Shown here one piece after another: positions 61,305 through 64,000 of a DNA stretch of 64,000 bases (the stretch's first letter is position 1; each line of letters starts with the position of its first letter). A program made the translations under genes and the position numbers. This DNA comes from Streptomyces globisporus. GTDB lineage: Bacteria; Actinomycetota; Actinomycetes; Streptomycetales; Streptomycetaceae. The notes under the pieces are model-generated. The model saw only the letters and a list, made by a program, of their open reading frames with translations. It was not told the origin of the DNA and made no database searches. The stretch is from positions 1 through 64,000 of the forward strand of contig BMTG01000019.1 in the NCBI GenBank assembly GCA_014649555.1, written 5' to 3'.

Positions 61305-61856
61305 TCAGCCGGCCTGGGCCATCGCGGCCCGGTAGCCGTTGGCGACGATCTGCCGGGCGGAGTGCTCGTAGTACTCGTCGTCCTTCGGCAGCTCCGTGGC
61401 GAGACCGCTGACGTACCGGTTGAACATGCAGAACGCGGCGGCGATCAGAACGGTGTCGTGCAGAGCGGTGTCGTCCGCTCCCTCGGCCCGCGCCGAGGCG
61501 ATCGCCCCTGCGGAGACCGGGCGCGCCGCGCTCTGGACCTCGGCGGCGACGGCCAGCAGCGCGCGCGTCCTGCCGTCGATGGGCGCGGTGGCGGGGTCGG
61601 CGAGGACGGCCTCGACGAGCTGCCGGCCTCCCGGCAGCTGCGCGGCGGCGAAGGCCCCGTGGGAGGCGGCGCAGAACTCGGTGGAGTTGAGATGCGAGAC
61701 GTACGCCGCGATGAGCTCGCGTTGCCCCGGTTCCAGCGAGGACGGCGCCCGCAGCAGGGCGTTCGCGAGATCGCCCAGCGGTGCTGCGGTGCCGGGGTGG
61801 TGAGCCATCAGACCACTGATGCCGGGGAGGTCGTTGTCGAGTGCTATGTGGGGCAC
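61305..61856 (-). CDS. AhpD/carboxymuconolactone decarboxylase-like protein
   Basis: A 183-residue single-domain protein of the peroxidase-related AhpD group. Instead of CxxC the motif reads NSTEFCAASHGAFAA near residue 60, with a single Cys followed by the conserved His, so it would not form the usual intramolecular disulfide. The GTG at 61856 follows ggaagga. It is downstream of the 55-residue peptide gene by 41 bp and upstream of the SDR, so all three are probably one transcript. Confidence 0.8.
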   Translation of the reverse strand: MPHIALDNDLPGISGLMAHHPGTAAPLGDLANALLRAPSSLEPGQRELIAAYVSHLNSTEFCAASHGAFAAAQLPGGRQLVEAVLADPATAPIDGRTRALLAVAAEVQSAARPVSAGAIASARAEGADDTALHDTVLIAAAFCMFNRYVSGLATELPKDDEYYEHSARQIVANGYRAAMAQAG

Positions 61857-61897: not shown

Positions 61898-62065
61898 TCA
61901 GGGCCATTCGACTTCGTCGTCGGCGGCCGCGCAGATGCGGGTGAAGGGCCATTCCACGTCTTCCCCTCCCGTTGCGGAGTGGGCGGAGGCCGTGGTGAAG
62001 AGGGTGACGAGTCCGAACGTGCCGAAGAGGAGGGACAGTCGGGCAACGTGAAGTGCGGTACCCAT
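61898..62065 (-). CDS. 55-residue exported peptide with duplicated VEWP motif
   Basis: The ATG at 62065 has aggag five bases upstream. Residues 8-28 are hydrophobic (RLSLLFGTFGLVTLFTTASA), a signal-peptide-like segment with a possible cleavage after ASA. The rest is acidic and contains VEWP twice, in GEDVEWPFTRI and at the very C-terminus in DDEVEWP. It has one Cys. It does not look like a shadow: start, ribosome site, signal and promoter line up. It is a candidate signalling peptide, modified peptide precursor or small exported protein. It opens the operon with the AhpD-like and SDR genes. Confidence 0.65.
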   Translation of the reverse strand: MGTALHVARLSLLFGTFGLVTLFTTASAHSATGGEDVEWPFTRICAAADDEVEWP

Positions 62066-62122
62066 GCGAGCTCCTAGCGAGGGCGGCGTGACCGCGGGAC
62101 GGTGAGACCTCGTGATGCCAGG

Positions 62123-62172
62123 AAGCTAGCGAATCGGACTGAGGGTGGCAACGATATGCCAGACTTTGGCAA
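62123..62172 (-). promoter_or_regulatory. Promoter of the peptide operon with TTGCCA pair
   Basis: On the minus strand, TTGCCA at 62151-62146 serves as -35 and TAGCTT at 62128-62123 as -10, with a 17-bp spacer. The -10 is about 57 bases before the peptide start. A second TTGCCA lies 21 bp upstream (62172-62167), so an activator could bind both copies on one DNA face. Inverted half-copies (ATGCCA 62156, TTGCC 62174) lie between and above. Confidence 0.6.
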
Positions 62173-62184
62173 CTTGCCTGGGTA

Positions 62185-62802
62185 TCAGCCGGACTGTCGG
62201 CCGCTGGTGAAGACGGAACGGCGAGATCCCGCGACCGCGTCGCTGAGCAGCAGGGTCTGCTCACCCAGCGTCGGGGCGGCCAGCATGTCGCGTACCGGGA
62301 GCGTGACGCCCAGCTCGCGGTTGATCCTGCGGACCAGCCGGGTGATGAGCAGGGAGTCGCCGCCGTGGGCGAAGAAATCAGCACCTTCGGAGGGGTCCGG
62401 GAAGCCGAGCAGGTCACCCCAGCCGCGCACCAGTACCTGGCGGATGTCGCCGGTGGTGACGACCGTGCGCCGGGAGCCCCGACGTGCCGAGCGCAGCCGC
62501 GTGGCATGCACCAGCGCCACCTGGTCGCCGAGGTTGCGCCGCGACAGCTCGCGCAGCGACACCGTGACGCCGAACCTCTCGGTGATCCTGCGGACCAGCC
62601 GCGTGATCAGCAGCGTGTCCCCGCCGCGCGCGAAGAAGTCCGAATGCTCGGTGAGGTCGGAGCGGCCGAGGAGCTCGCTCCACGCGCCGACCATGAACTC
62701 CCCCACGTCACCGAGCCGGTGCTCGTTGCCGTCGGGGCCCTTCGACGCGCCGGATCCCGCGGAACGGTTCCGGCCGGAGACGGCAGAGCGGTCACTGGTC
62801 AC
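62185..62802 (-). CDS. Tandem carrier protein (two PCP/ACP-like domains)
   Basis: A 205-residue protein made of two carrier domains. The upstream one has FFARGGDTLLITRLVRRI and the downstream one FFAHGGDSLLITRLVRRI. The second has the phosphopantetheine Ser of the GGDS motif; in the first the Ser is replaced by Thr, so it is probably not modified. Such discrete double carriers are unusual. The GTG at 62802 has ggagg eight bases upstream; ATG 62817 is possible. No ketosynthase, adenylation or condensation gene is adjacent, so its partner is unknown. It could serve the enediyne pathway or an unknown product. Confidence 0.85.
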   Translation of the reverse strand: MTSDRSAVSGRNRSAGSGASKGPDGNEHRLGDVGEFMVGAWSELLGRSDLTEHSDFFARGGDTLLITRLVRRITERFGVTVSLRELSRRNLGDQVALVHATRLRSARRGSRRTVVTTGDIRQVLVRGWGDLLGFPDPSEGADFFAHGGDSLLITRLVRRINRELGVTLPVRDMLAAPTLGEQTLLLSDAVAGSRRSVFTSGRQSG

Positions 62803-62848
62803 TTTCGCCACCTCCATGGGCATGTGTCGGCTGCATCGGCTTCCCGCC

Positions 62849-62899
62849 ACGGTACGGGAGCACATGTTGCATGGCAATACCTTTCCAAGTCGGTGGCAA
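62849..62899 (-). promoter_or_regulatory. Promoter of the tandem carrier gene with TTGCCA pair
   Basis: On the minus strand, TTGCCA (62877-62872) is -35 and TACCGT (62854-62849) is -10, spacer 17 bp. A second TTGCCA lies 22 bp upstream (62899-62894). An inverted copy, TTGCCA on the plus strand, is at 62906-62911. The layout repeats that of the peptide operon. Confidence 0.6.
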
Positions 62900-62961
62900 C
62901 CCTCCTTGCCATCCACCCGCCGCAGTTGGGCGAGATGTGTAGGCAGTCGAGGTCGGCAGGT

Positions 62962-62991
62962 TTGCCAAGCCGCGCGCGACCGGCATACTCT
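62962..62991 (+). promoter_or_regulatory. Promoter of the XRE-TPR gene
   Basis: TTGCCA at 62962-62967 and TACTCT at 62986-62991 with an 18-bp spacer, about 92 bases before the GTG start. The same -35 word as in the two neighbouring promoters suggests autoregulation; a second upstream copy is not clear here. Confidence 0.5.
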
Positions 62992-63082
62992 CTGGCACAA
63001 CTGGAATGAGTAGCGTGGCAGGCCACGGGGACCGGGCCGGGCCAGGAACCTTCGTCCTCCATCTATTCGCTGGGGCGTGCAC

Positions 63083-64000
63083 GTGTTGGAGCAGCCATCT
63101 TTCGGCCGTCGCCTGAGGCAGCTGAGGACCGAGCGGGGTCTTTCCCAGGCCGCGCTTGCGGGGGACGGCATGTCTACGGGCTATCTCTCGCGCCTGGAGT
63201 CGGGCGCCCGGCAGCCCTCCGATCGCGCCGTCGCCCACCTGGCCGGACAACTCGGCATCAGCCCGTCGGAGTTCGAAGGCTCCCGGGCCACCTCGCTCGC
63301 CCAGATCCTCTCCCTCTCCACTTCCCTGGAGTCCGACGAGACCAGTGAGCTTCTCGCCGAGGCGGTACGTTCCGCGCATGGCCAGGATCCGATGCTCCGC
63401 TGGCAGGCCCTGTGGCTGCTGGGACAGTGGAAGCGCCGGCACGGCGACTCGGCCGGCGAGCACGGCTACCTCCAGCGTCTGGTGACGCTGAGTGAGGAGA
63501 TCGGCCTGGCCGAGTTGCGCGCACGGGCCCTGACCCAGTTCGCCCGGTCGCTGCGGGTACTGGGCGAGATCGTTCCGGCGGTGGAGGCCGCCGCCGCCGC
63601 CCACCGGCTCGCGGTGGACCATGCGCTGTCCAGCCAGGACAGGGCCGCTTCGCTGCTGGTTCTGGTGTCGGTGGAGGCCGAGGCGGGACGGATGCCCGAT
63701 GCCCGGCGCCACGCCGACGAACTGACCGTCCTGGTGAGGGGACGGTCCGACACTCTGTGGGCCGAGGCGTTGTGGACGGCGGGCGCGTTGAAGGTGCGGC
63801 AGGGCGAGTTCGCCGCGGCCGAGGTCCTTTTCCAGGAGGCTCTGGACGGGTTCGACAGCCGGGAGAACCTGACGATCTGGCTGCGGCTGCGCATCGCGAT
63901 GGCCGAACTCCACCTGCAGAAACTTCCCCCCGAGCCCGACGCCGCGCAGCTCTGCATCGAGGCGGCGGAGGCGGCCCTTCCCTTCGCCCGCACATCCGCT
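63083..64000 (+). CDS. XRE-family regulator with TPR-like C-terminal region (partial)
   Basis: The frame is open from GTG 63083 to the window end, 306 codons. Residues 6-60 form an XRE helix-turn-helix (FGRRLRQLRTERGLSQAAL, then STGYLSRLESGARQPSDRA). The rest is helical in TPR-like pairs (RWQALWLLGQWKRRHGDSAG, LRARALTQFARSLRVLGEI, LWTAGALKVRQGEFAAAEVL). This architecture resembles RRNPP peptide receptors of Firmicutes and several Streptomyces pathway regulators. It is divergent from the tandem carrier gene and shares its TTGCCA promoter word. The ribosome site is weak, so the start is uncertain. Confidence 0.85.
   Translation, partial: MLEQPSFGRRLRQLRTERGLSQAALAGDGMSTGYLSRLESGARQPSDRAVAHLAGQLGISPSEFEGSRATSLAQILSLSTSLESDETSELLAEAVRSAHGQDPMLRWQALWLLGQWKRRHGDSAGEHGYLQRLVTLSEEIGLAELRARALTQFARSLRVLGEIVPAVEAAAAAHRLAVDHALSSQDRAASLLVLVSVEAEAGRMPDARRHADELTVLVRGRSDTLWAEALWTAGALKVRQGEFAAAEVLFQEALDGFDSRENLTIWLRLRIAMAELHLQKLPPEPDAAQLCIEAAEAALPFARTSA

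Follow-up and report, generated by a model that had tools for sequence, protein, structure and literature searches.

Among the closest described systems are the DNA-binding members of the RRNPP family (PlcR-PapR, NprR-NprX, Rgg-SHP, ComR-XIP, PrgX, and AimR-AimP), which combine an XRE-type helix-turn-helix (HTH) with a superhelix of tetratricopeptide repeats (TPR). Here, we analyzed a stretch of 64,000 nucleotides of Streptomyces globisporus (contig BMTG01000019.1 of assembly GCA_014649555.1, positions 1 to 64,000), referred to as the window, the right edge of which carries a gene for a 55-amino-acid (aa) pro-peptide with an acidic core ending in Trp-Pro (W-P) and a gene for an XRE-TPR regulator. 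The two probably constitute a cluster-situated, RRNPP-like peptide-pheromone circuit of actinomycete biosynthetic clusters. The locus resembles the RRNPP systems in its domain layout, in the small precursor gene next to the receptor, in the short C-terminal core, and in the predicted operator at the peptide gene's own promoter. On the other hand, it belongs to Actinomycetota, not Bacillota, it is found within varied biosynthetic clusters, and the sequence similarity of its regulator to known members is essentially confined to the HTH. Unlike the present system, the known RRNPP peptides have, to our knowledge, no acidic W-P core.

The Phr peptides of Rap receptors are exported precursors with short cores, some of them multi-copy. 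The present precursor is likewise of a putatively exported type with a short repeated core, and the predicted receptor fold is best matched by Rap-CSF; however, Rap proteins, as far as we know, carry no DNA-binding domain, whereas the present receptor has an XRE HTH. The gamma-butyrolactone/ArpA signalling of Streptomyces, as outlined in the passages considered, is similar in being a cell-cell control of antibiotic clusters, but it relies on a small molecule and not, as proposed here, on a ribosomal peptide with an XRE-TPR receptor; ArpA-type receptors are of the TetR type. The activators of the SARP family (BTAD domain), whose operators are repeats overlapping the -35 element, are similarly cluster-situated, and SARP-like genes were present within the fetched flanks of 18 of the 79 loci described below. 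The present regulator differs from them in lacking a BTAD domain, in the half-site TTGCCA, and in having a peptide partner.

A survey of RRNPP systems was limited to Firmicutes and viruses, and its passages considered here describe actinobacterial signals as typically small molecules (PMC10075063). For Streptomyces, the corresponding passages of a 2026 review give gamma-butyrolactones only (PMC13220807), and those of a 2016 review describe actinobacterial signalling generally as cyclic or modified peptides and gamma-butyrolactones and name no such system (PMC4748050). No description of W-P peptide/XRE-TPR signalling was found in the titles and passages retrieved from the open-licence PubMed Central (PMC) literature; preprints and subscription papers lay outside this scope, and an earlier description is possible. 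The core strings occurred in the same literature in unrelated contexts only. The name PapR refers, in passages of some Streptomyces papers, to unrelated pristinamycin regulators.

The full regulator sequence (413 aa) was obtained from beyond the window edge; its start in the public annotation is equivalent to position 63083. Pfam searches placed an XRE-type HTH (HTH_31, HTH_3) at the N-terminus, followed by TPR repeats. The predicted structure, with a predicted local distance difference test (pLDDT) score of 90.7, matched Rap, PlcR, and NprR in fold searches, with Rap-CSF as the best match. These results bear out the layout of RRNPP receptors that an earlier note on this DNA had read from the window, and the C-terminal part is predicted to form a TPR superhelix of the peptide-binding kind. 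A profile of the regulator family matched ComR, Rgg, and PlcR over the HTH or just beyond only (residues up to about 101). The evidence supports a system that would work like RRNPP; kinship by descent is not established by matches limited to the HTH. The recognition region of the HTH (helix 34–42) is almost invariant across 80 regulators and fits one shared operator. Binding proteins of the oligopeptide permease (Opp) type are encoded in the same genome, with a putative role in peptide import.

The pro-peptide starts with a putative hydrophobic export segment; in the closely related peptides of loci L038 and L039 (L and G denote our locus and genome labels), the mean hydropathy over 14 residues was 2.24 and 2.16, respectively. 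The distinctive VEWP C-terminus pointed out previously is present, but the core is not C-terminal alone, as it occurs in two copies, DVEWP and EVEWP. The signal is most likely this pentapeptide-like core in two copies. The peptide gene was present in three of 295 genomes of the genus, including its own, and regulator relatives at an E value of 1e-20 or better were found in 51 of these 295.

In the window, the pattern TTGCCA-N16-19-TANNNT occurred only three times, at the promoters of the peptide gene, a tandem carrier gene, and the regulator gene, with spacers of 17, 17, and 18 bp, in agreement with the earlier note. The second TTGCCA that had been placed 21 or 22 bp upstream at the first two promoters was also found, at 62167 and 62894. 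Because the two TTGCCA of the peptide promoter have an inverted TGGCA between them, the operator is predicted to be a set of alternating half-sites, with inverted half-sites over the -35, rather than a direct pair alone. Over the whole window, TTGCCA was no more frequent than expected (12 copies versus 13.6 expected); six of the 12 fell within 822 bp, where about 0.15 would be expected under an even spread by after-the-fact arithmetic. The special feature is the arrangement, with pairs falling at these promoters, and not abundance.

Relatives were collected from one genome per species, and the best 80 of 113 confirmed places were kept, which represent 79 distinct loci. These are mostly from Streptomyces and also from Nonomuraea, Micromonospora, Actinoplanes, Winogradskya, Catenulispora, and others. 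TTGCCA was present in 73 of the 79 stretches of 400 bp upstream of the regulator, compared with 5.3% of those at a distance of over 3 kb; its density was 6.1 per kb in these 400 bp and 0.32 elsewhere in the loci, and it was the hexamer most enriched by excess upstream of the 79 regulators. The preferred distances between TTGCCA copies were 10, 12, 21–22, and 31 bp. Among 204 TTGCCA sites, TANNNT followed at 18 bp in 45 and at 17 bp in nine, with 0–4 at each other spacer between 5 and 39 bp. The loci contain 65 promoters of the form TTGCCA-N17/18-TANNNT, of which 54 are at the regulator, in 39 loci; in 28 of the 65, GGCAA begins 9 bp upstream, giving TGGCAA-N4-TTGCCA, or nearly so, over the -35. 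In nine clade members, the peptide promoter consists of GGCAAGTTGCCAAAGTCTGGCA or a close variant, followed by TTGCCA and then by the -10. A lack of conservation of TTGCCA pairs in relatives had been named beforehand as an outcome that would refute the proposal; the pairs are conserved at promoters. The part of the earlier proposal in which the regulator acts through such pairs is thus retained, and the predicted inverted half-sites over the -35 extend it.

A C-terminal or repeated W-P core links the peptides to the regulator across actinomycetes. In 55 of the 79 loci, the 2.6 kb around the regulator contain a frame with [ILV][DEG]WP at or close to its end. Within this distance there were 61 W-P frames in 487 kb, of which 55 lay upstream on the opposite strand, compared with 14 in 749 kb farther off, and six of the 14 are clear multi-copy precursors near TTGCCA sites. 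Near distant regulators (32–45% identity to that of the window), a peptide was found in 14 of 20 stretches; all 14 end exactly in WP, and 12 are encoded on the regulator's own strand, just upstream. On the regulator tree, the peptide types changed 22 times, compared with 44.7 times in shuffles, with "none" treated as one type; the labels of 54 rows were set by hand, and L107 and L112 count there among the "none" (26 of 80 rows). In a comparison of neighbour families (open reading frames (ORFs) of at least 70 aa in 8-kb flanks), the regulator family was found in 75 of the 79 loci, and the next family, the AMP-binding type of nonribosomal peptide synthetases (NRPS), in at most 34. Different loci carry different cargo nearby, including ATP-grasp and PhyH, NRPS-type genes, SARP-type regulators, and further families, so that the pair resembles a control module that can be moved between biosynthetic clusters.

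The nature of the peptides was examined on a filtered list of 64 peptides in 55 loci, which covers the strand opposite the regulator only. For this set, L105, L107, and L112 were added by separate analyses in place of three chance-like loci, L047, L075, and L114; the figure of 64 excludes the rows of L047 and L075 as well as one frame each of L064 and L108, and the counts include the chance-like frames of L092 at 359 and L051 at 6211. A hydrophobic N-terminal segment, assessed by a hydropathy measure only and not by SignalP, was present in 39 of the 64, including the relatives nearest the window. All 34 multi-copy precursors (two to four copies) carry it, and 28 of the 64 peptides end exactly in WP. 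The dipeptide before WP was identical in 73 of 73 pairs within a precursor, compared with 1199 of 3497 pairs (34%) between precursors. Each of the 39 peptides with a hydrophobic segment has a small-x-small, loosely AxA-like stretch before the first core, by a permissive and uncontrolled criterion.

Computation has shown the genes, the doubled core, the layout of the promoters and how it is conserved, the linkage across the family, and the fold, and on this basis the following circuit is proposed. The 55-aa precursor would be secreted, and the acidic W-P core (DVEWP/EVEWP, perhaps together with some flanking residues) would be released from it, re-enter cells via an oligopeptide permease, and bind the concave groove of the TPR superhelix, where it would be expected to dock close to the conserved residues R150, R157, R160, W233, W268, R270, and R272. 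The regulator, probably as a dimer, would occupy TTGCCA half-sites, often as TGGCAA-N4/5-TTGCCA centred near -40, with another half-site often about two turns upstream, and the promoter-proximal TTGCCA would double as the -35. Peptide binding would then switch the peptide operon, the genes for the carrier and for the regulator itself, and probably a proline-dehydrogenase-like gene at the level of transcription, with feedback as a result.

As to the sign of regulation, we moderately favour activation by the peptide-bound regulator, because the palindrome overlaps the -35 in a class II activator geometry, and a repressor would fit the circuit too. A repressor would cover the -35 and be released by the peptide or another ligand, and TTGCCA does overlap the -35 in 54 of the 204 sites. 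However, an inverted repeat near -40 with extra upstream half-sites fits class II activation, and TTGACA, a better -35, was found zero times at that place near the regulator. Repression seems possible but rather unlikely.

It is also conceivable, though improbable, that the W-P peptide is a ligand acting inside the producer as a timer or expression-level sensor, with the hydrophobic segment being incidental or an anchor. The 25 of the 64 peptides without the segment, all single-copy and two of them chance-like frames, some merely 16–35 aa long, would suit such a role and speak against general export, as would the eight loci that hold both a leaderless and an exported-type peptide. On the other hand, the consistent hydrophobic segment of the multi-copy precursors, the AxA-like stretch before the first core, and the core repeats, which suggest a precursor that is cut up, argue for export, and the peptide of the window belongs to the exported type.

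A ribosomal natural product precursor or a structural secreted peptide, with the regulator sensing something else and the linkage reflecting a shared cluster type, is very unlikely. The VEWP peptide gene is indeed followed on the same strand by genes for CMD-like and short-chain dehydrogenase enzymes, but the cluster types differ, no neighbour family besides the regulator exceeds 34 of the 79 loci, and a CMD gene is present in merely seven of 12 loci considered in the window's own clade (two of the 12 being the same S. bambusae locus). Chance can practically be dismissed: although TTGCCA is unenriched in the window overall and high-G+C DNA yields many ORFs and promoter-like words, the spaced -10, the peptide motif, and synteny are conserved in the 79 loci, and, of the three further [IVM][DEG]WP-stop words in the genome, the two examined (the end of a membrane protein at C28 and a 12-residue chance frame at C16) lie beside no such regulator.

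Several points weigh against the proposed circuit. Export and processing of the precursor, import of the core and its binding to the regulator, binding of the regulator to DNA, and the sign of regulation are all steps that we infer. Direct pairs TTGCCA-N9..30-TTGCCA numbered three in the 8.25-Mb genome, two of them at this locus, compared with five for the backwards control, and TGGCAA-N4..17-TTGCCA occurred at one place, at this locus, compared with four for its control; the counts are thus not above the controls and close to chance rarity, and rarity of the pairs alone is no proof because the backwards patterns are equally frequent. The pattern [IVM][DEG]WP-TGA occurred four times in the genome and its control three times. 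In the fold searches, the scores of eukaryotic TPR proteins reached those of Rap, which makes the TPR superhelix unspecific by itself.

The remaining points concern the peptides. Sequence change in the peptide is rapid outside the cores: the ratios of synonymous to non-synonymous codon differences over six pairs were 2:9, 5:5, 11:9, 2:9, 6:12, and 10:5, counts that are few and not clearly purifying. The two copies in genome G057 differ (DVEWP and DVYWP; outside the pair count), and L099 and L066 each have one degenerate copy that was missed by the pattern and is uncounted. The frames at L047, L075, and L114 look like chance, and 24 of the 79 loci have no detected W-P peptide, including 13 from Streptomyces, five of six Nonomuraea-type, two of three Micromonospora, and both Catenulispora loci. 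In 19 of the 24, TTGCCA is present in the 400 bp preceding the regulator, and some of the 24 have short flanks; when the 24 loci that lacked a W-P peptide at that stage were scanned for some other short divergent ORF, no common pattern emerged. Because the sister regulators of L058 and L059 pair with IGWP or IDWP, the specificity between peptide and regulator may be loose. Regulator columns that covary with the third core residue were inseparable from shared descent and were not used as evidence.

Beyond the single circuit, we lean towards a whole pheromone language, in which numerous W-P signals would switch many cluster types, every signal having an XRE-TPR receptor and TTGCCA operators of its own. 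In some lineages it would be a two-peptide language, with an exported multi-copy pheromone and, by the receptor, a leaderless single-copy peptide that is perhaps an internal competitor or self-tuning ligand.

The loci L051, L057, L059, L060, L071, L080, L105, and L110 combine a DDDI[GD]WP peptide that is leaderless and single-copy with a W-P precursor that has several copies and a hydrophobic segment. In L057, L059, L060, L071, L080, and L105, the multi-copy precursor lies 4–7 kb from the regulator, near TTGCCA clusters. L092 was rejected as a two-peptide locus; its second peptide is a chance-like frame.

The coordinates of the features are listed in Table 1.

Table 1. Positions in the window of the peptide and regulator genes, their promoter elements, and neighbouring genes.
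Coordinates	Strand	Feature	Basis
61898..62065	-	55-aa pro-peptide gene, MGTALHVARLSLLFGTFGLVTLFTTASAHSATGGEDVEWPFTRICAAADDEVEWP	ORF list; conserved promoter in relatives
61973..62065	-	Putative N-terminal hydrophobic export segment, about residues 1–31, end judged by eye	Sequence
61946..61960	-	First core copy, DVEWP	Sequence; W-P motif family
61901..61915	-	Second core copy, EVEWP, C-terminal	Sequence; W-P motif family
62123..62128	-	-10 TAGCTT, peptide promoter	Promoter pattern search; TAGCTT in 7/9 aligned promoters including the window
62146..62151	-	TTGCCA at -35, peptide promoter, spacer 17	TTGCCA in 9/9 aligned promoters
62167..62172	-	Upstream TTGCCA half-site, peptide promoter, 21 bp from the first; inverted TGGCA between	
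62849..62854	-	-10 TACCGT, carrier promoter	Promoter pattern search
62872..62877	-	TTGCCA at -35, carrier promoter, spacer 17	
62894..62899	-	Upstream TTGCCA half-site, carrier promoter, 22 bp away	
62894..62911	.	Inverted repeat TGGCAA-N6-TTGCCA	Sole TGGCAA-N4..17-TTGCCA place in the genome
62962..62967	+	TTGCCA at -35, regulator promoter, spacer 18	
62986..62991	+	-10 TACTCT, regulator promoter	Promoter pattern search
63077..64000	+	XRE-TPR regulator, 413 aa, running past the window to contig C19:64318	ORF and domain search, predicted structure
62185..62823	-	Tandem carrier, two PP-binding domains, upstream of the peptide gene	Pfam PF00550, two stretches
61305..61853	-	CMD/AhpD-like protein, next gene after the peptide	Pfam PF02627
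60312..61280	-	Short-chain dehydrogenase, next after the CMD-like gene, same strand	Pfam PF00106
59312..60391	+	Second CMD/AhpD-like protein, near the regulator in several relatives	Pfam scan and neighbour comparison

Plasmid SGLP1 of S. globisporus C-1027 and four further S. globisporus plasmids carry a regulator 99.8% identical to that of the window. On SGLP1, the identical 55-aa peptide is annotated as "hypothetical protein" (WP_158514079.1), and the gene order is the same as in the window, with an SgcE6-annotated reductase and a type I polyketide synthase. The near-identical regulator, identical peptide, and shared gene order identify the window, by sequence comparison, as the C-1027 enediyne region. 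The enediyne setting noted earlier is thus upheld, but the system is not special to enediyne clusters. Regulator relatives were present in 37 plasmid records (35 Streptomyces, one Kitasatospora, and one Embleya), and none was found in phage records at an E value of 1e-10. The published regulators of the C-1027 cluster include sgcR1–R3, and the passages on this cluster in the same paper contain no mention of the XRE-TPR regulator or the W-P peptide (PMC2657911).

The short-chain dehydrogenase gene is flanked by the two genes for CMD/AhpD-like proteins, the larger of which has a long C-terminal part without a Pfam match. The tandem carrier starts in the public annotation at the equivalent of 62802. 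Beyond the window lies the proline-dehydrogenase-like gene (L002:4714-5820, equal to contig C19 64713-65819; PF01619, slightly below the cut-off), preceded by a further set of TTGCCA/TGGCAA (L002:4461, 4483, and 4636). Such a gene follows the regulator in all nine named clade loci (L038–L046) and also in L102; in the genome of the window, it accompanies a Pro-ending peptide. In G057 (L140 and L006), the peptide gene lies beside a regulator remnant consisting of the C-terminal part only, and a complete second module with an ELDWP peptide and TTGCCA promoters is found about 26 kb from the VEWP peptide, adjoining pieces related to enediyne-cluster genes. L122 (genome G193) has two oppositely oriented regulators of the family, separated by about 2.3 kb, and the matched stretch of one contains an in-frame stop.

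Peptide signalling via cytosolic TPR receptors is usually regarded as a speciality of Bacillota. If the proposed circuit is true, many silent biosynthetic clusters would be controlled by receptors with ligands that are evident from the genome sequence and obtainable as short synthetic peptides. The long-standing question of the natural on-switch of such clusters would then become open to direct tests, for example in the classic C-1027 region.

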